Positions 20,058 to 36,962 of a stretch of 43,609 nt of DNA are shown piece after piece. Position 1 is the stretch's first letter. Each line of letters starts with the position of its first letter. A model generated the notes under the pieces. That model did not search any database. It saw only the letters and a list, made by a program, of their open reading frames with translations, and was not told where the DNA came from. Location: the NCBI GenBank assembly GCA_001462245.1, contig LIUG01000149.1:468-44076 (forward strand), in the 5' to 3' direction. The DNA is from Candidatus Fibrimonas termitidis (GTDB lineage Bacteria > Fibrobacterota > Fibrobacteria > Fibrobacterales > Fibrobacteraceae). The position numbers were made by a program, and so were the translations under genes.

Positions 20058-20126
20058 ATGACTTTAAACAACAAAATAGTACCCTTTGGACACCTGTTCT
20101 GCATGAACAGCTTGTGTTGTTGTTGA
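20058..20126 (+). CDS. Cys-rich leader peptide A: MTLNNKIVPFGHLFCMNSLCCC
   Basis: Starts 11 nt after the -10 box with no SD. Homologous in position, start region and poly-Cys-stop ending to leaders B and C. Confidence 0.75.
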   Translation: MTLNNKIVPFGHLFCMNSLCCC

Positions 20127-25742: not shown

Positions 25743-25770
25743 TTGACAAAGTTTTTAAAATTTCTATATT
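25743..25770 (+). promoter_or_regulatory. Promoter TTGACA-N16-TATATT of leader B
   Basis: -35 at 25743-25748, -10 at 25765-25770. Confidence 0.75.
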
Positions 25771-25781
25771 TGATGCTGATT

Positions 25782-25865
25782 ATGACTTTGAGCAACAAAA
25801 CATTATTCTCTAAACATCTGTGCTGTCGAGTGTTCTCCAGCAACAGGCTGTGTTGTTGTTGCTAA
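25782..25865 (+). CDS. Cys-rich leader peptide B: MTLSNKTLFSKHLCCRVFSSNRLCCCC
   Basis: Starts 11 nt after the -10 box. Differs from leader C largely at synonymous third positions plus one in-frame Cys codon. Lies upstream of an operon ending in cysK. Confidence 0.85.
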   Translation: MTLSNKTLFSKHLCCRVFSSNRLCCCC

Positions 25866-25884
25866 AATCCCCCAAAACGATTCG

Positions 25885-25918
25885 TATTTCACGGTGTGCT
25901 TCGCACCATAAAAGAAGT
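25885..25918 (+). promoter_or_regulatory. Stem-loop in leader B 5' UTR
   Basis: GGTGTG-CTT-CGCACC with outer ATTTC/GAAGT; 33 nt identical to the leader C 5' UTR. Confidence 0.6.
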
Positions 25919-25954
25919 TGAATTTTCCTTTCACCAATAACCTATGAGGTTTCT

Positions 25955-27196
25955 ATGAAAAAAGTATCTCTTGATACGTACGCTGTCCATAAGGGACTCG
26001 TTTCTCTCACCGCTCTGCTAATCGGGGCTTCAGCTGCATTGGCAGAAGACATTCCTGTTGTAAATGTAGGCGGAACAAAAATCTCCCTATACGGATTTTT
26101 GCAAGCAAACGCCGTTTATGAAGACGGTGCTAATGGTAACGTAAATTGGTCGGAAAAGGTTCCGTCAAGAGCTGAAGACGGTGAAGGCCGTTTTGCGCTT
26201 AATGTGAACCAAACAAGAATCGGTTTCAATCTATCCGGACCTTCCGGAGAAGCAACAGAAGTAGCCGGAAAATTTGAATCCGACTTTGCAAACGATAATG
26301 AACGCAGATCTAATGGAGTTAGCAACTTCCGCATAAGGCAATCTTATGGACAGGTGAAATTCAAAGATGTCGGCTTAACCATACTCTTTGGCCAAACCGG
26401 TGATTTGATAGCTCCTCTGACTGCGCCCACTATCAATCAGGGAGGCTTGAAACATCAGGGTTCTATCGGCACTCGCCGTCCGCAGATCCGCTTGACTCAA
26501 GGCATTGGGCCGGTTGAAATAGCCGTTGCAGCCACAGATGACCGTGCAAACCAGCCTGTTTTGCCGGGCTTTCAAGGTTCTTTAAAAGGAAAAATCCCTG
26601 CAGTCTGGGCTGGAGAAAAACAGAACGTAGAGATTATCCTTAGCGGGCACTATGCATCGGAAGAATCCGCCGCAGACGACACAACGGGAGTAAAAGCGAA
26701 GAAAGAAGATGATTGGGGAACACCGTCTTCTTGGTCTGGTGTTGCAAGTTTGTCTTTGCCTGTGATTAGCATCATAAACCTTTCCGGAGAAGTTTTCTAC
26801 GGACAAAATCTTAACCGTTATAGCAACGGAAGCATAGGTTTAAGCGGCACGGCAACTGGCGGCAAAAAAGACGAGGGGATACAGTCACTAGGTGGCTGGG
26901 GCGCAGCAACCGTAAAACTTCCACTGGGTTTCTCTATCGCCGGCGGCATAGGCCTTGAAGCCATTGATGAAAATCGCGAATTAAAAACCAGCGATCCTAA
27001 AAAACCAAATCCGAACAAGAATACGGTAATATTCACAAATCTGAGATACAATGTTGGAGAGACAGCATTTATCGGTTTTGAATATGCGAATTTGAAAACG
27101 GATTATGCGGATTTGATAACTGGCGAAAAACCGGAAAAAGTTGATAGCGGCAAGCTAAATCGCTTTGAACTGGTTTTCAACTATGCTTTTAAATAA
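25955..27196 (+). CDS. Outer-membrane porin (DcaP-like)
   Basis: Signal peptide; ISLYGFLQANAVYED; FALNVNQTRIGF; C-terminal RFELVFNYAFK beta-signal. Confidence 0.75.
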   Translation: MKKVSLDTYAVHKGLVSLTALLIGASAALAEDIPVVNVGGTKISLYGFLQANAVYEDGANGNVNWSEKVPSRAEDGEGRFALNVNQTRIGFNLSGPSGEATEVAGKFESDFANDNERRSNGVSNFRIRQSYGQVKFKDVGLTILFGQTGDLIAPLTAPTINQGGLKHQGSIGTRRPQIRLTQGIGPVEIAVAATDDRANQPVLPGFQGSLKGKIPAVWAGEKQNVEIILSGHYASEESAADDTTGVKAKKEDDWGTPSSWSGVASLSLPVISIINLSGEVFYGQNLNRYSNGSIGLSGTATGGKKDEGIQSLGGWGAATVKLPLGFSIAGGIGLEAIDENRELKTSDPKKPNPNKNTVIFTNLRYNVGETAFIGFEYANLKTDYADLITGEKPEKVDSGKLNRFELVFNYAFK

Positions 27197-27228: not shown

Positions 27229-28203
27229 ATGACTGTATTCTCTAAGAAGCGCGCATCAGGTTGCGCAAAAATCACCGCCCTCATTCTGCTCTCGCTCTTC
27301 GCGCTAGGCTGCAAAGAAGAGAAAGCGAAAACAGAAGCGGCAGCAGTGCGGACTAAGATTGTAGTGGCAGATGCAAAAACCACTCACCATCTGAACCTTT
27401 ACGTAGCCAGAGAACTCGGATTGTTCGATAAATACAATCTGGACGTAGAAATCAAATGGGTGGATGACAATGCGGCGGCTCGCGACCTTGTAGTTTCCGG
27501 CGGTGCGGATGTATTCTGGAGCTGCCCGACCGTGGCTATCGCAGCCATCGCAAACGGCGCCCCTATAAAAACCATCGCGCAGGTAAAAACACCTTGCACA
27601 AGCGTGCTATTGGTTCCGCAAGACTCCCCAATTTCCAAACTTGAGGACCTAAAAGACAAGGAAATCGCCGGTATTTCGCCAACTTGCGAAGCGGTTATTT
27701 CCCTGACTTCTGCGGCAAAAAAAGCAGGTGCCAAATTTAACCTTCAGCGTTTGGCAGGCGGCCCCGCAATCACCGCTCTAAAAGGCGGCTCGGTTGACGG
27801 CGCAATACTGGAAGAACCGCAAGCCAGCATCGCCGAACTCGATGGTTATAAAGTGCTGTTCAGAGAAGTATCTGAGAATATCCCGTGCCGCACCATCAAT
27901 GCGAGCGACAGGGTTTTGGCATCCAATGCCGAGGGACTCAAAAACCTCATCAAAGCCATTGACGAAGCCAACAAGATAATTCTCTCCAACCCCAAGGCGG
28001 ATAATATCGTGAAAATCGCCGCAGATTACACAGGTGCGCCGGTGGAAGCGATTATCCATGGCAATGACAGGCTGAAATTCGGAATTGCTATCAAAGTAGA
28101 TGGCTTAAATTTACTGGCCGACGAATTGCTAGCTAACGGCAACATCAAGGAAAAACCCGGTAACGCTATGTTTGCCGCCGAATTCAAGGGTATCACATGG
28201 TAA
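27229..28203 (+). CDS. ABC transporter substrate-binding lipoprotein 1
   Basis: LFALGCKEEK lipobox; THHLNLYVARELGLFDKYNLDVEIKWVDD. Confidence 0.85.
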   Translation: MTVFSKKRASGCAKITALILLSLFALGCKEEKAKTEAAAVRTKIVVADAKTTHHLNLYVARELGLFDKYNLDVEIKWVDDNAAARDLVVSGGADVFWSCPTVAIAAIANGAPIKTIAQVKTPCTSVLLVPQDSPISKLEDLKDKEIAGISPTCEAVISLTSAAKKAGAKFNLQRLAGGPAITALKGGSVDGAILEEPQASIAELDGYKVLFREVSENIPCRTINASDRVLASNAEGLKNLIKAIDEANKIILSNPKADNIVKIAADYTGAPVEAIIHGNDRLKFGIAIKVDGLNLLADELLANGNIKEKPGNAMFAAEFKGITW

Positions 28204-29084
28204 AGAAAACGCTCCTTGCCTTGCTTCTTTTGCTCCTGCTTGTTTTAATAACCTGCGAGAAGAAGAAGCGCAATGCGCTCAGAGTTGGGCATAGCGGCGG
28301 CTATCTCTCTGCCGCCCTTTACGCTGCGCAAGATAGTTTGGTAAATGTTGATATTCAGCATTTTAACTCAACTTCGGACATAGCTTATACGCTGCTTTTG
28401 GGCGCATTGGACGCAGGGTTTGTGGAAGCCGAAAAGCTGGCTGCTTTTGCAGAACTGGACGGCTTTGACCAACTCACTGTTGTAGGCAAGGTGACATATC
28501 CTTATGGCGCAACCCTTATTCTGCGAAAGGGCTTGAATGTCCGTTTGCAGGAACTCGGCGGGCTTACTATAGCCGTATCGGAACCGACCTGCGTGTTGCT
28601 GGACACTTTTTCAAGTGATGCCAAGCGGCTGGGTGCGGATATATCCAATGTGAAATATAAGTACATGGTATTTCACGCCATGCTGCCCGCTTTGGAGTCG
28701 GGCGATGTGGATGCGGCAATAATCAAGGGTACCTACGCTGTAGCAGCTTTGCAAGCCGGCCATTCCATTCTATATCAGAACTGGGAAGTGCAACCAGGCG
28801 ACGAGTGCTGCCCTGCGATTTTAGACCAGGCTGCTCTTGTATTGCTCTCACGTCGCGAAAAGCTGGAAGCGGTAAAGCCCTTTATAAATGCGCTTGTATT
28901 TGCGCAAAAGTCTCCTCCAGACCAATTGCGCCAATCAGTCGCAGAGCATTCGGTAATTCCGTTTGAGATGCTGCGAGGGCAACCCGTGCCGGAATTTTCT
29001 CTTGAAAGTGACAAACTGCTTGAAACTTTCATTAAGCATAAACATGAAGACGGTGACCATGATGATCATGACCACCACGATTAA
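28197..29084 (+). CDS. ABC transporter substrate-binding lipoprotein 2 with His-rich C-terminal tail
   Basis: LVLITCEKKK lipobox; C-terminus KHKHEDGDHDDHDHHD. Confidence 0.8.
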   Translation: MVKKTLLALLLLLLLVLITCEKKKRNALRVGHSGGYLSAALYAAQDSLVNVDIQHFNSTSDIAYTLLLGALDAGFVEAEKLAAFAELDGFDQLTVVGKVTYPYGATLILRKGLNVRLQELGGLTIAVSEPTCVLLDTFSSDAKRLGADISNVKYKYMVFHAMLPALESGDVDAAIIKGTYAVAALQAGHSILYQNWEVQPGDECCPAILDQAALVLLSRREKLEAVKPFINALVFAQKSPPDQLRQSVAEHSVIPFEMLRGQPVPEFSLESDKLLETFIKHKHEDGDHDDHDHHD

Positions 29085-29099
29085 CGGATTGAGGTTAAA

Positions 29100-29948
29100 A
29101 TGGCAATGAACAAAAACAAATACGAAGTAAAAGGCGCACGCAGCACTTTCCGGCTGGTGTTGCGTGAACTCGGCTATTTTTTTAAAGGAGCCGCCTTGAA
29201 TATATTCTCGCCGGAATTCCTCGTGGTGTTTATCCCTTTGCTTGGGCTTTGGGAAGCCTTGCCGCGCCTCGGTGCAGTGCCACGAACATTGGTGCCGCCG
29301 CCCAGCGACGTGGCTATGGCTTTTTGGGAAATGCTCACCGTGCGCAATTTTTTGGGAGATGTTGCAAGCAGTATGCTCAAATTCTTTATGGGGCTGGGAA
29401 TTGCTATCATAGCCGCCATTCCAATCGGGGTGCTTATGGGCTGGAATATCGCCGTGAGAAAACGCACTCTGCCGCTGTTCCAGCTTTTATCTCCCATACC
29501 ACCGCCCGCATGGGTTCCCATCACGATAATCCTCTTCGGAATAGGCCTCCCCATGCAAACATTTCTGATTTTTCTAGGGGCTTTCTACCCGATTTTGTTC
29601 AATACCTACCAAGCGGTCAAAGACACCGACCCCAGGTACCTTTCCAGCGCAAGGGTGTTCGGGGCAAGCGAGCTTACGCTCATTTTGCATGTATATTTTT
29701 GGCACGCCATCGGAGCTATTATCATGAGCGTAAAAACAGGCGTAGCTATGGGGCTTGTGATGCTCGTTATTGCGGAAATGTACGGCGGGCGAACAGGCAT
29801 TGGCTATGTGCTCAACGAAGCCAAGGACTATTTTCAAATTTCGAGAATGGTGGTGTGCATGGTAACGCTTGGTGTAATTGGCTGGTTTTTGATTGAGGTG
29901 TTGAAATTTGTTGAATTGAAACTTGCCGTATGGAAGGGGGTGCGTTAA
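29100..29948 (+). CDS. ABC transporter permease (SsuC-like)
   Basis: VPPPSDVAMAFWEML, PIPPPAWVPITIILFGIG, MGLVMLVIAEMYGG. Confidence 0.9.
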   Translation: MAMNKNKYEVKGARSTFRLVLRELGYFFKGAALNIFSPEFLVVFIPLLGLWEALPRLGAVPRTLVPPPSDVAMAFWEMLTVRNFLGDVASSMLKFFMGLGIAIIAAIPIGVLMGWNIAVRKRTLPLFQLLSPIPPPAWVPITIILFGIGLPMQTFLIFLGAFYPILFNTYQAVKDTDPRYLSSARVFGASELTLILHVYFWHAIGAIIMSVKTGVAMGLVMLVIAEMYGGRTGIGYVLNEAKDYFQISRMVVCMVTLGVIGWFLIEVLKFVELKLAVWKGVR

Positions 29949-30821
29949 ATGATTGAAGCTCGCAATGTAAGCAAATTCTTTTCCGTTGTGAATGAAGACC
30001 GCACCGCAGACGGCATCACCGCCGTGCTTTCGGTATCGCTCACCGTGGAAGACGGAAAAATCCTAAGCCTTTTAGGTCCCTCCGGGTGCGGAAAATCCAC
30101 ATTTTTAGAAATTTTGGGCGGTTTACAAGCTCCCACCGAAGGCAGCGTTTATATCGATGGCGTGCAGGTATTGGAACCTCTGCCGTCCACTCGCAAAGAG
30201 ATGGACGACTATCGCCGCAAATATAAATTTCTATCGCCGCTCGCAAACAGCATGTTCAAAAACCGCCCAAAACACGACATCGCTATGATTTTTCAGGATT
30301 ACGCTGTATTTCCGTGGATGACCGTGCTTCAAAATGTTGTGTTTGCGCTGAAACTCCGCGACATTCCACGCCGGGAGCGTGAAGCCAAGGCTATGATATA
30401 CCTGAAAAAAACAGGGCTTGCCGACTCTCTGAGCAAATATCCGGCACAGCTTTCGGGTGGAATGCGGCAGAGGCTGGCTCTTGCCCGTGCGCTGGCGGTG
30501 GATCCCCGCATTATCCTTATGGACGAGCCTTTTGCCGCCGTGGATATGCTCACCCGTGAACGCCTGCAAGACGACCTTCTGCGTTTGTGGAACGAAACGG
30601 GTATCACCATTATACTTGTAACCCACGACATCAATGAGGCTTTGTATCTCTCGGATGAAATTGTTGTGTTTTCCGCCAACCCCGGCTCAATACGCAATCG
30701 TTTTCCCATTGAAACGCCACGCCCTCGCAGGCGCAGCGATCCGGATCTCTTGGTGCTTGGGCAACGCATAGAAGCGCTTTTCAAATATGACATCAACCAT
30801 GAAAGTGAGTACTCAATATGA
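29949..30821 (+). CDS. ABC transporter ATPase (SsuB-like)
   Basis: [38 protein letters not shown]. Confidence 0.92.
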
Positions 30822-31765
30822 CTGCATTTCGTTCAAAGGTGTATGATACCATCACCGAAGTAATAGGAGCAACGCCGTTGGTGCGTTTGCCGAAAATCAG
30901 CACTGGCCTTCCGGGAATTTTGCTCGGCAAGCTGGAATACTTTAACCCGGCCGGCAGCGTAAAATGCCGCATAGGCGCAGCAATGCTTGCGGCGGCACAG
31001 CGGGAGGGCAAACTCAAACCCGGCGGCGTGGTTATAGAACCAACCAGCGGCAACACGGGCATTGGGCTTGCCTTTGCCTGCGCAGCGCAAGGCTATAAGC
31101 TGATACTAACGATGCCGGAGACCATGTCTCTGGAGAGGCGCAAATTGGCACGAATGCTCGGAGCCGGTCTTGTTTTGACTCCCGGCAACGAGGGCATGGT
31201 GGGTGCTATAAAAAAAGCAAAAGAACTCAGAGCGCAAATAGCCGATAGCTTTATGCCCTTGCAGTTCGAGAACCCAGCCAATCCGCAAATTCACCGTGAA
31301 ACCACGGCAGAGGAAATCTGGCAAGACACAGACAGATCGGTGGATATTTTTGTAGCCGGCGTAGGCACGGGCGGCACCATTACCGGTGTGGGCGAGGTGC
31401 TCAAAGAGCGCAAGCCAACCGTGAAAATAATTGCGGTAGAGCCGGATGCCTCCCCAGTGCTTTCGGGCGGCAGAGCCGGCCCGCATCGCATACAGGGCAT
31501 CGGCGCGGGTTTTGTCCCAAAAATCCTGAACCGCTCCATAATAGACGAAATCGTCCGTGTAACCAACGAGGATGCCTTTGACACAGCCAAAAGATTGGGC
31601 CGTGAAGAAGGCATACTTGCGGGTATATCCTCAGGAGCGGCGGTTTGGGCGGCATTGCAACTGGCATCCAAGGCGGAGAACGCCGGCAAAATCATAGTGG
31701 CGATGCTGCCGGATTCGGGGGAAAGGTATCTTTCTACGCAGCTTTCGGATACATCGGAGGGTTAG
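30818..31765 (+). CDS. cysK: Cysteine synthase A
   Basis: [61 protein letters not shown]. Confidence 0.95.
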
Positions 31766-33257: not shown

Positions 33258-34118
33258 GTGACTGCCATAGTTTTGGGTAATTTTGACGGTTGTCATTTGG
33301 GGCATAAAGCCTTGTTTGAGGCATTGAAGTCAGAAGCAAAAAGAAATGAGATGCCGCATCTCGCAATATCTTTTGAACCGCACACAAGGCATTTAATTCA
33401 AGAACCCGGGCATCCGGAACTTTTAACCTTGGATGAAGAGAAAAGAGATTTTATGGAACATTGCGGAGTTCCTCTTGTTTTGCAAAAATTTGACAAGGAT
33501 TTATTCGCAATGCCATTTCGCTCTTTTGTGGAGGAGTTTGCCGTAAAAAAATATGGCGCAAAACTTTGGGTACTTGGTTTGGACCAAAGGTTTGGACGAG
33601 GCGGCAAAGGCAGCGCAGAATCTCTAAAAACATTCTTTCCAAATTTATCCATCTACGAAATAAATCCGGTTTTATTCGATGGCGAAGCGATTAGCTCTTC
33701 TCGCATACGAGAGTCTCTTAAAAGCGGAAACTTGGATTTGGCAAATGCAATGCTCGGGCGAGATTATTCGCTTTGCGGAATTGTGGAACACGGTTTGGGA
33801 CAGGGAAAGCAGCTCGGTTTTCCAACTGCGAATCTGAGTTTTGCGCCATATAAACTTTTGCCTAAAAACGGCGTATATTCCGGGACTGCATTTTTTGACG
33901 GGCAAAAACATAATGCGGTAATCAACATAGGCTGCCGCCCATCGCTTGGCAATAGACCCGTTGGCTTGGAAGCGCATTTGCTCAATTTTGACGGAGATTT
34001 ATACGGCAAAAAATTATCCGTAGAACTCGGCAAACGGCTTAGAGATGAGATTAAATTTGAAAGCATAGACGCATTGAAAGAGCAAATAAAAAAGGATATT
34101 TCCCTAATATTTATTTGA
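33258..34118 (+). CDS. ribF: Bifunctional riboflavin kinase / FAD synthetase
   Basis: VLGNFDGCHLGHKAL, SSSRIRESL, GFPTANL, PKNGVYSG; GTG start. Confidence 0.93.
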   Translation: MTAIVLGNFDGCHLGHKALFEALKSEAKRNEMPHLAISFEPHTRHLIQEPGHPELLTLDEEKRDFMEHCGVPLVLQKFDKDLFAMPFRSFVEEFAVKKYGAKLWVLGLDQRFGRGGKGSAESLKTFFPNLSIYEINPVLFDGEAISSSRIRESLKSGNLDLANAMLGRDYSLCGIVEHGLGQGKQLGFPTANLSFAPYKLLPKNGVYSGTAFFDGQKHNAVINIGCRPSLGNRPVGLEAHLLNFDGDLYGKKLSVELGKRLRDEIKFESIDALKEQIKKDISLIFI

Positions 34119-34415
34119 ATCTAGGCTGTTGGTTGTAATTGTTTGAACGCTTGAGTCCGGTTTTGTCACAGTCCAGTGCAAGAGCGTGCCGTCCTTACGC
34201 ACAGTCATCCTTCCGCCCAAGCCTCCCATATCCTCGCCGAGAAAAAGCGCTATTGCCTCTGCCGGGCATTCCTTGACGCAAGAAGCACACCCCCAGCAAC
34301 GTTCCGGATGCAAAATAACAGCCTTGCCTTCTTTCAATTTGATTAAACTTCCGGGGCAAATTTTTGTACATCTACTGCAACCAGTGCATTTTTCATGCCG
34401 CATTTCAATGCTCAT
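34104..34415 (-). CDS. AprB-like 4Fe-4S ferredoxin subunit
   Basis: CTGCSRCTKICPGSLI and CWGCASCVKECPAEAI; overlaps the AprA-like gene. Confidence 0.8.
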   Translation of the reverse strand: MSIEMRHEKCTGCSRCTKICPGSLIKLKEGKAVILHPERCWGCASCVKECPAEAIALFLGEDMGGLGGRMTVRKDGTLLHWTVTKPDSSVQTITTNSLDSNKY

Positions 34416-36015
34416 AAATTTCTCCCTCCCGAACCAAGGGGCGCAGAACAATCTTTATTTCACCGTTTTCCAACCGAGAGTTGATATAATATTCCGTTTC
34501 TTTTCCGACGGACAGATGAGCAATCAGCGACCTGCACAAAGTAAGGCGTTCTTTGAGTTCCAATACATATACGAGTTCCTGCATATCCGCAGCTGAGATG
34601 AGTTCGGAGCGAGCTTCCAATTCCCGGATTTTTTCGTCCGCAATTTTTAACGAAGTTTCCGAAAAACGGTAAGAGGTGCTTATTCCTCCGGCGTGTTCGT
34701 CCATTACCGCTTGCATTTCTTCTTCCAAATCATTTATAGTAAATGCTGATTTATTAGCTTGGGTATAGGGTATGGGGTTTGGGGTATAGGGTATGGGGTT
34801 TGGGGTATAGGGTATGGGGTTGGGGGTATAGGGTTCATCTATGTATTTTAGCGCTGCTTTTGCTGCGATTTCCCCTTCAACCAAAGCTCCGGTCACATAT
34901 TTTTGCGGGCAGCCTCCCGCTGCATCCCCTGCTGCAAATAGGCCGCGCACGGTTGTTTCTCGGTTTGTACTTACCCAATATCCCGCGGCAGTGTGGCCGC
35001 CTGTGATATAAGGTTCGGTTCCCTCAATTTCAACATTTTGCACGCTTGGCCCTTTGCCGCTTTCTAACCAGCGCAAACTCTGGCTTGGAGCCATATTTAA
35101 GTAAGCTTTCACCAAATCCGTTTCCTGCTCTTTTGTAATTCCTGCAGTTTGCAGATAACAGGGGCCTCGTCCGCTCAAATTTTCCATCACCGTTCCATGC
35201 AGGCGTTGAGAGGTTGTAAGGCCGTATAGGGTTTCATAAACTTCCCCGGCTGAATTTATTTGCTTTGCCCCAACTCCCTGTGCCAAAGTTCCCGTAGGAG
35301 CAATGGTATCTTTGCATCTCAAAGCGATAAAACGCATTTCCAAAGTGGTCATTTCCGCACCCGCGCGAATACCCATTGCAAGCCCCGCTCCGGTGTTGAA
35401 AGGCGGATACCATAACTTGTGCCGGGAAAAGCCAGGGTGGTTCGGTTTATACAGCCCCGAAGCACCTCCGGTAGCGCATAACACAGCTTTAGCAGAAATA
35501 ACATAAAGCACAGGTTCGTCAATAGATATTGCATAAGCACCGAGAATACGGTTGTCCTTAACGATATATTCAAATACATTCACCCGGTTTAGCACGGTGA
35601 TATTCTCCCGTGCCGAGACCGCTTTGGCTAAAATAGGTTTAATGTTCTCCCCGTTGATTTTGATATTGCGCCAGCCACGTGTGACATATTGCCCCTGCTC
35701 ATTTTTCAAAATGGTAAGCCCAAGTGCTTCTAATTTTTCGGCAGCACGGTTAAGCCCCTCCGCCATAGTCAACAGGAGGTCGCCACGCACACTGCCATCC
35801 GCATCGGCACGAGCGTAATCCACATAATCCTGCGGCGTTTTACCCGGCCCTATATAGGCATTGAGAGCGTTAACCCCGGCAGCAAGGCAACCGCTTCGCT
35901 TGATATCGGCTTTTTCAGCGATTAAAACACGAGCATCCGAATTCAGCGCAGCCCAACATCCCGCTGTGCCGCCGCCTATAATCAGAAAATCCGTATCAAT
36001 ACGCCGCAAATCCAC
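34405..36015 (-). CDS. AprA-like (adenylylsulfate reductase alpha-type) FAD flavoprotein
   Basis: TDFLIIGGGTAGCWAAL FAD motif; GRGPCYLQT, GGHTAAGYWVSTNRETTVRGLFAAGDAAGGCPQKYVTGALVEG. Confidence 0.75.
   Translation of the reverse strand: MDLRRIDTDFLIIGGGTAGCWAALNSDARVLIAEKADIKRSGCLAAGVNALNAYIGPGKTPQDYVDYARADADGSVRGDLLLTMAEGLNRAAEKLEALGLTILKNEQGQYVTRGWRNIKINGENIKPILAKAVSARENITVLNRVNVFEYIVKDNRILGAYAISIDEPVLYVISAKAVLCATGGASGLYKPNHPGFSRHKLWYPPFNTGAGLAMGIRAGAEMTTLEMRFIALRCKDTIAPTGTLAQGVGAKQINSAGEVYETLYGLTTSQRLHGTVMENLSGRGPCYLQTAGITKEQETDLVKAYLNMAPSQSLRWLESGKGPSVQNVEIEGTEPYITGGHTAAGYWVSTNRETTVRGLFAAGDAAGGCPQKYVTGALVEGEIAAKAALKYIDEPYTPNPIPYTPNPIPYTPNPIPYTQANKSAFTINDLEEEMQAVMDEHAGGISTSYRFSETSLKIADEKIRELEARSELISAADMQELVYVLELKERLTLCRSLIAHLSVGKETEYYINSRLENGEIKIVLRPLVREGEIYEH
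34761..34834 (+). repeat. 21-nt coding minisatellite, about 3.5 copies, G-rich on + strand
   Basis: gggtatagggtatggggtttg repeated; encodes (IPYTPNP)n in the AprA-like protein. Confidence 0.95.
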
Positions 36016-36017
36016 CC

Positions 36018-36806
36018 TTAAATTCCTTGCTTAATGTCGTTTATGGACTCATACAAATGTTTCTTTTGCTTTAACAAGGGCCTGTTCACATCGCTGAGAA
36101 AGTCGGTGACAAACGGGTTTGCCGGATTATCGCATACCTCTATCGGGCTTCCCATCTGTTCGATTTTCCCTTTGTTCACAATGACTATAGAATCCGAGAC
36201 TTCAAGAGCCTCATCCTGATCGTGTGTTACAAAAATACTGGTGACGTGAATTTCATCATGCAAACGGCGAAGCCAGTTTCGCAGTTCCTTGCGGACTTTT
36301 GCATCAAGAGCACCGAAAGGTTCATCGAGCAGCAATACGGTGGGTTCCACGGCAAGCGCTCTAGCAAGCGCAACTCGCTGCCTTTGCCCGCCGGAAAGTT
36401 CCGATGGGAAGCGATTCACAAAATTCTCCAGTTGAACAAGGGAAACAAGACGCATTACATTTTCATGTATAGTCTTTTTGTCCGGGCGTATTTTTCGTGG
36501 GCGAACACGAAGCCCAAAAGCGATGTTTTCAAACACGTTCATGTGCCTGAAAAGGGCGTAATGCTGAAAGACAAAGCCAACTTTCCTGTCTTTCACCTGT
36601 TTTTTGGTCAAATCTTCCCCAAAAAACTTTATTACGCCGGTATCTGGAGTTTCCAAACCCGCTATAATCCGGAGTAGCGTAGTTTTGCCACAGCCGGAAG
36701 GCCCCAACAAGGCGATGATATCCCCTTTGGGAATATTGATGCTGATGTTGTCCAAGGCAACAAAGTTGCCGAACTTTTTGCTGACGTTTGCTATTTCAAC
36801 GTTCAT
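36018..36806 (-). CDS. cysA: Sulfate-type ABC transporter ATPase (CysA-like)
   Basis: [88 protein letters not shown]. Confidence 0.85.
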
Positions 36807-36881: not shown

Positions 36882-36962
36882 TTAGCAACAACACAGTCTG
36901 TTGCTGGAGAATACTCGACAGCATAGGTGTTTAGAGAATGATATTTTGTTGCTCAAAGCCAT
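36882..36962 (-). CDS. Cys-rich leader peptide C: MALSNKISFSKHLCCRVFSSNRLCCC
   Basis: Starts 11 nt after the -10 box; lies upstream of the CysA/AprA/AprB-like operon. Confidence 0.85.
   Translation of the reverse strand: MALSNKISFSKHLCCRVFSSNRLCCC

Follow-up and report, generated by a model that had tools for sequence, protein, structure and literature searches.

The short open reading frame MTLSNKTLFSKHLCCRVFSSNRLCCCC, which precedes a porin, ABC transporter and cysK operon in Candidatus Fibrimonas termitidis, is quite probably a translated leader peptide that ties expression of the downstream sulfur genes to cysteine supply. The coding character of the frame, its use of TGT codons, the stable helices that it forms, the family to which it belongs and its genomic context together make it very likely that this is a Cys-responsive ribosome-stalling leader. 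The frame lies in a 43,609-nt stretch of DNA, the whole of which is referred to here as the window, and it is one of 35 intact leaders found, with one truncated remnant, in this genome and three relatives.

The leader and its promoter

The promoter of the leader (25743..25770, + strand) is of the sigma-70 type, TTGACA-N16-TATATT, with 11 of 12 consensus matches; the −35 box occupies 25743-25748 and, after a 16-nt spacer, the −10 box occupies 25765-25770. Direct reading of the coordinates bears out the earlier note's account of a 27-codon frame (25782..25865, + strand) that begins 11 nt 3' of TATATT without a Shine-Dalgarno (SD) sequence and ends in four Cys codons (tgt tgt tgt tgc, 25851-25862) and a taa stop, 89 nt before the porin ATG at 25955. 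The same note took the frame to be leaderless. The near-constant spacing of −35 box, −10 box and start codon in all copies is consistent with an mRNA 5' end close to the ATG, but transcription starting 6–9 nt past the −10 box would leave ∼2–5 nt before the start codon, and the frame is described here as near-leaderless.

The first gene of the operon (25955..27196, + strand) encodes a protein that resembles a porin in its sequence character and gave no Pfam or NCBIfam match. It is followed by genes for two SsuA-like substrate-binding proteins, an ABC permease, an ABC ATPase and CysK (27229..31765, + strand). That the operon ends in a cysteine synthase, as the earlier note had it, is confirmed for 30818-31765, which scores 456 bits with TIGR01139, a model whose cut-off is 351. 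Two further leaders of the same family inside the window had been overlooked. The first, MALSNKISFSKHLCCRVFSSNRLCCC (36882..36962, − strand), precedes genes for the CysA sulfate ABC ATPase, adenylyl-sulfate reductase alpha and a ferredoxin-like protein that is probably AprB (34104..36806, − strand); the second, MTLNNKIVPFGHLFCMNSLCCC (20058..20126, + strand), precedes genes for an HD-GYP response regulator and CO dehydrogenase and SsuABC-like genes.

A family of leaders in four genomes

Copies were sought with the last 15 nt of the leader against the genome, then by protein search, and then with two sequence models (R1 and R2) of promoter plus leader. The 15-nt query revealed a second copy on contig C72, where it precedes the gene for a sulfate-binding protein. 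The models recovered all intact copies at E≤3.3e-18 (the weakest at 3.3e-18) and the remnant at 4e-9, while background promoters appear from ∼4e-8. The window genome (G000; 3.16 Mb in 211 contigs) carries 7 intact leaders, three of them within the window. G001 has 12 and the remnant, a cut-down leader reading MTLSN and a stop in front of cysD; Candidatus Fibrimonas sp. Mcx344_bin28 (G002), the assembly of which is 60% complete, has 9, and Fibrobacteria bacterium GUT31 (G010) has 7. The existence of this conserved family excludes a chance origin of the MTLSNKTLFSKHLCCRVFSSNRLCCCC frame.

A near-invariant promoter of the TTGACA/TATATT type is common to all 35 leaders, and promoter, start and open frame are intact in essentially all copies. 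At least two Cys codons lie near the end in 33 leaders, the exceptions being two cysM leaders (C179 and C130) with a single Cys (LCI before the stop). The earlier note had looked to related genomes for the decision, and the homologous leaders there do keep frame, start and position before sulfur genes, as well as, in nearly all copies, a Cys tract. The CCCC tract itself, however, is not universal, as CLCC, CMCC, CICC and CCC also occur.

Among 97 other Fibrobacterota genomes, including nine of the same genus, there was no strong match to the promoter-plus-leader model. Pattern matches at two loci outside the four-genome group (L109 and L114) were rejected, as neither has a Cys leader. The four leader-bearing genomes likely form a single clade. 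A gyrA tree groups G000, G010 and G001 and leaves G002 unresolved, while the rpoB tree places G001 elsewhere. Given this disagreement, mixing of genome bins or transfer is possible.

The region upstream of cysP was also read in three relatives of the genus. The promoter is similar in G009 and G012, but no leader follows it; in its place G012 (L147) has a palindrome-like stretch, aaacatatatgttt, and G009 (L148) has such a stretch as well. Neither leader nor similar promoter or palindrome was evident upstream of cysP in G008. The palindrome-like stretches are possibly repressor sites, which would imply that one regulator has been exchanged for another within the genus.

Genes behind the leaders

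Most leaders precede operons for sulfate uptake, sulfate reduction or cysteine synthesis, although the names of the downstream genes rest partly on a reading of their sequences. The set comprises cysP-T-W, cysA with adenylyl-sulfate reductase, cysD, cysN, metY, a gene resembling sulfite reductase subunit C together with further sulfur-transfer genes, and SsuA-type transporters with porin and cysK. At one Cys leader of the window genome (L089, contig C7) the operon consists of cysK and the genes for a family 2A encapsulin, for the cysteine desulfurase that it carries as cargo and for serine acetyltransferase. A cysM-type synthase also lies behind a leader, with neighbours that resemble Mec+ and a ThiS/ThiF-type protein. 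Some first genes are not obviously concerned with sulfur, namely those for HD-GYP response regulators, CO dehydrogenase, carbonic anhydrase, a corrinoid protein and a small protein that precedes a PBP-like gene.

Coding character of the leader frame

All intact leaders are open, in frame, over 22–30 codons. Pooled in-frame pN/pS is 0.36 for type A, the value that applies to the MTLSNKTLFSKHLCCRVFSSNRLCCCC leader, and 0.51 for type B (the type A pool took in one type B row), compared with 0.73–0.82 in the other two frames. Codon choice is also distinctive: the leaders have 111 TGT and 37 TGC codons versus 69 and 299, respectively, in 98 open reading frames of the same loci (p=3e-33, a value that overstates independence because the leader copies are paralogues). 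TGT is thus the Cys codon favoured by the leaders and avoided by ordinary genes.

The start codon is marked by a gene fusion. A carbonic anhydrase gene of G002 lacks an SD and opens, in frame, with the first seven codons of a leader (MISSNKT); its homologue in G010 is preceded by a full leader. As the G002 carbonic anhydrase begins with leader codons in this way, ribosomes very probably initiate at the leader ATG. The G002 carbonic anhydrase gene (L236, G002:C68:1361) and a cysN of the window genome (L235, G000:C109:15010) each start with a leader-like ATG immediately behind a −10-like box, as if a deletion had fused the leader start to the gene; the cysN, which begins MVLS, parallels the fusion less strongly.

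Conservation of the peptide extends beyond its Cys residues, which would also be expected of a Cys-rich product with a role in trans, such as a microprotein that binds metals or thiols. Such a role is extremely improbable, as there are many copies, most of them directly 5' of a sulfur operon, the non-Cys residues coincide with the arms of RNA helices and the length of the Cys tract varies.

Nested helices in the leader RNA

The RNAalifold consensus for most groups of leaders is a nested fold in which a helix P1, formed by 5' codons reading (A/G)GCAACA and the Cys codons, encloses a hairpin P2. In the window copy P1 (25790..25863, + strand) joins GAGCAACA at 25790-25797 to the Cys codons at 25851-25863, and P2 (25818..25846, + strand), which adjoins the Cys tract on its upstream side, joins CUGUGCUG at 25818-25825 to CAGCaACAG at 25838-25846. 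Both helices are more stable than synonymous recoding would give, in tests that count paralogues as independent: for P1, p is about 1e-7 over 35 non-independent leaders, and for P2 the window copy has z=−2.9 and the 35 leaders a mean z of −2.1, with 27 below −1. By a formal pair count the outer pairs of P2 are formed in 89% of cells, and the same count gives no excess of covariation in P2 over shuffles.

Downstream of the leader a hairpin GGUG-UGCUUCG-CACC followed by AUAAAAG (25893..25914, + strand) occupies the intergenic region. Its general form, GGUG..CACCAUAAMAG, recurs behind many leaders and, in the genomes searched (G000, G001 and G010), is found only downstream of leaders. RNAalifold of seven cysP/porin leaders gives a further small hairpin, AACCU-aug-AGGUU (25939..25951, + strand), that includes the porin SD (GAGG, 25946-25949).

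The stability of P1 and P2 and the restriction of the intergenic hairpin to leader loci could be read as the signature of a structured RNA element, either a riboswitch or a leader bound by a protein, to which the frame is incidental. This is very unlikely in view of the in-frame lengths, the pN/pS values, the retention of the Cys tract as codons and the capture of the start codon by a downstream gene in G002. In addition, a local search with Rfam covariance models (T-box, S-box and others) gave nothing at E≤1, and no model reached its gathering score in the window.

Proposed mechanism and the output step

In a Cys-responsive stalling leader of this design RNA polymerase would start within a few nucleotides of the ATG and the ribosome would load at the 5' end. 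When Cys-tRNA is ample the ribosome would finish the frame and release, P1 would form between the Cys codons and the 5' codons, with P2 inside it, and output would be low. When Cys-tRNA is scarce the ribosome would stall on the Cys tract and cover the 3' arm of each helix, derepressing the downstream genes. Of this scheme, put forward in the earlier note as stalling followed by derepression, the first part is in keeping with the conserved frame, the Cys tract and the sulfur context, but folding gave no support for the output step. As the same leader precedes most sulfur-assimilation steps in the window genome, these would all answer to one signal, with no repressor involved, as a 'ribulon'.

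Pairing of the Cys tract with the downstream SD found no support as the basis of output, own ribosome-binding sites (RBSs) being paired no better than control ones. In folding calculations covering the Cys tract barely moved SD exposure (0.32 to 0.33–0.36), a comparison with 77 control genes showed at most a slight deficit in SD exposure for the leader genes, and no leader region preferred its own intergenic region to control regions as a pairing partner. A YAAYAA motif is enriched before the SDs (17/35 versus 6/77, among loci that are paralogous). A candidate pairing of intergenic CAUAA with UUAUG at the leader start was dropped, as the bases do not co-vary.

The stalled ribosome might instead prevent an early transcription stop, either Rho-dependent or at a non-canonical terminator. 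The leader with its nested helices resembles the layout of the trp and his systems, and in 2 of the 35 leaders an AGCAACA:UGUUGCU hairpin is followed by AAAAUUUUU. Rho has been proposed for actinobacterial Cys leaders that also lack terminators (PMC1262725). Transcription attenuation is nonetheless doubtful. No intrinsic terminator with a U-run was evident between leader and gene at any of the 35 leaders; terminator-like sites occur in 5 of them against 1.4 expected, but in all five the hairpin lies inside the open reading frame, and the window copy has none. Intrinsic terminators do exist in this genome, as illustrated by an unrelated leader (L243, contig C31, − strand, from about 3761) in front of a porin and a ModA-like gene, where a short open reading frame is followed by AAAGGCGTG...CACGCC and a long T-run. 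L243 is itself likely an attenuator with an intrinsic terminator, and a candidate for molybdate-type control.

Relief of a translational block is thus slightly favoured over early transcription stop, as the terminator was not found and the closest studied system works through translation. In that system, the mycobacterial poly-Cys leaders of Canestrari et al. (2020), the stall reportedly frees a sequestered downstream RBS, and the genes so controlled are said to form a 'ribulon'. It is unlikely that stalled ribosomes mainly shield the mRNA from decay. In favour of such protection, the anatomy of the leaders would place the stall no more than about 90 nt from the 5' end of each copy, but the conserved intergenic hairpin would be left unexplained.

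Spread of the leader cassette

Unrelated genes behind the leaders have their RBS and first codons in common. The window porin and the unrelated CysP share the N-terminus MKK..LDT.AVHKGLVS, the start of a G002 porin gene matches metY over about 84 nt, and the cysK start region is carried by an HD-GYP gene in G010 and a CO dehydrogenase gene in G001. Homologues also differ in whether they have a leader of their own: a binding-protein gene in G001 and a permease gene in G001 and G010 do, while their window homologues lie inside the porin operon. These two features indicate that a regulatory cassette has been copied among loci. Its unit would comprise promoter, leader, intergenic hairpin, RBS and the donor gene's first codons, and leader copies in the related genomes appear to have spread together with those codons.

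On balance, and with some reserve, we favour the view that a Cys-sensing stalling regulon arose separately in this termite-gut Fibrobacterota lineage and spread by copying of the cassette before unrelated genes, leaving chimeric N-termini. The G002 porin with a metY-derived start and the G002 carbonic anhydrase that opens with leader codons would be examples. As the copies carried donor codons along, the evolutionary route can be read from sequence.

Relation to known leader peptides

Leader peptides rich in the end-product amino acid mediate classical attenuation of the trp and his operons. The Fibrobacterota leaders share with these the control codons for the end-product amino acid and a hairpin in the leader, but have no U-run terminator and place the Cys codons at the very end of the frame. 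Poly-Cys leaderless open reading frames are cysteine-responsive attenuators in Mycobacterium smegmatis (Canestrari et al. 2020, doi 10.1111/mmi.14498, as described in PMC9031893 and PMC13236596). They reportedly have a frame at the mRNA 5' end (see also PMC9094748), as the Fibrobacterota leaders probably do, and like these have a Cys run near the stop, stand before several cysteine operons per genome and lack an intrinsic terminator. The Fibrobacterota leaders, by contrast, belong to a different phylum, are carried on a cassette of promoter, leader and often intergenic hairpin at many loci, contain nested P1 and P2 helices and precede a wider gene set, which includes APS reductase, encapsulin and porins. 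A response to cysteine has been demonstrated for the mycobacterial leaders, and is predicted from sequence for those of Fibrobacterota. Candidates predicted by Seliverstov et al. (2005; PMC1262725) in the actinobacteria Mycobacterium, Propionibacterium acnes and Bifidobacterium longum likewise have Cys runs near the stop and no terminator, and Rho was suggested for them; these precede cys operons or cbs, whereas the Fibrobacterota genomes hold 7–12 copies each.

Compared by description, the Fibrobacterota leaders look like a separate occurrence from the mycobacterial ones, and the literature searched contained nothing on Cys-leader control in Fibrobacterota. Pathway-wide control by stalling on many separate leaders is, for cysteine, documented mainly in mycobacteria. 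Another case in so remote a phylum suggests that evolution can arrive at regulons of this ribosome-run kind repeatedly. With about 10 natural leaders per genome, these bacteria offer a tractable set for how a stall becomes an output.

Other near-leaderless open reading frames

Two further families of short frames were noted. A recurrent near-leaderless frame, exemplified by MLILNNITLLVRSLYADFMGRCVLESLHPPSR (ending ..LHPPSR before the stop), lies upstream of a P-type ATPase resembling MgtA at L237 (G010:C201:3364), L238 (G001:C56:2790) and L239 (G000:C22:30738, − strand), and is possibly a proline-codon Mg2+ leader. Another dispersed family, MMMYNTQNK..GAYGAG.., has the same type of promoter and occurs at L240 (G000:C78), L241 (G000:C3) and L242 (G010:C119), where TAGCACTTTTTTAC comes next downstream, and also at L223, L231 and L234.
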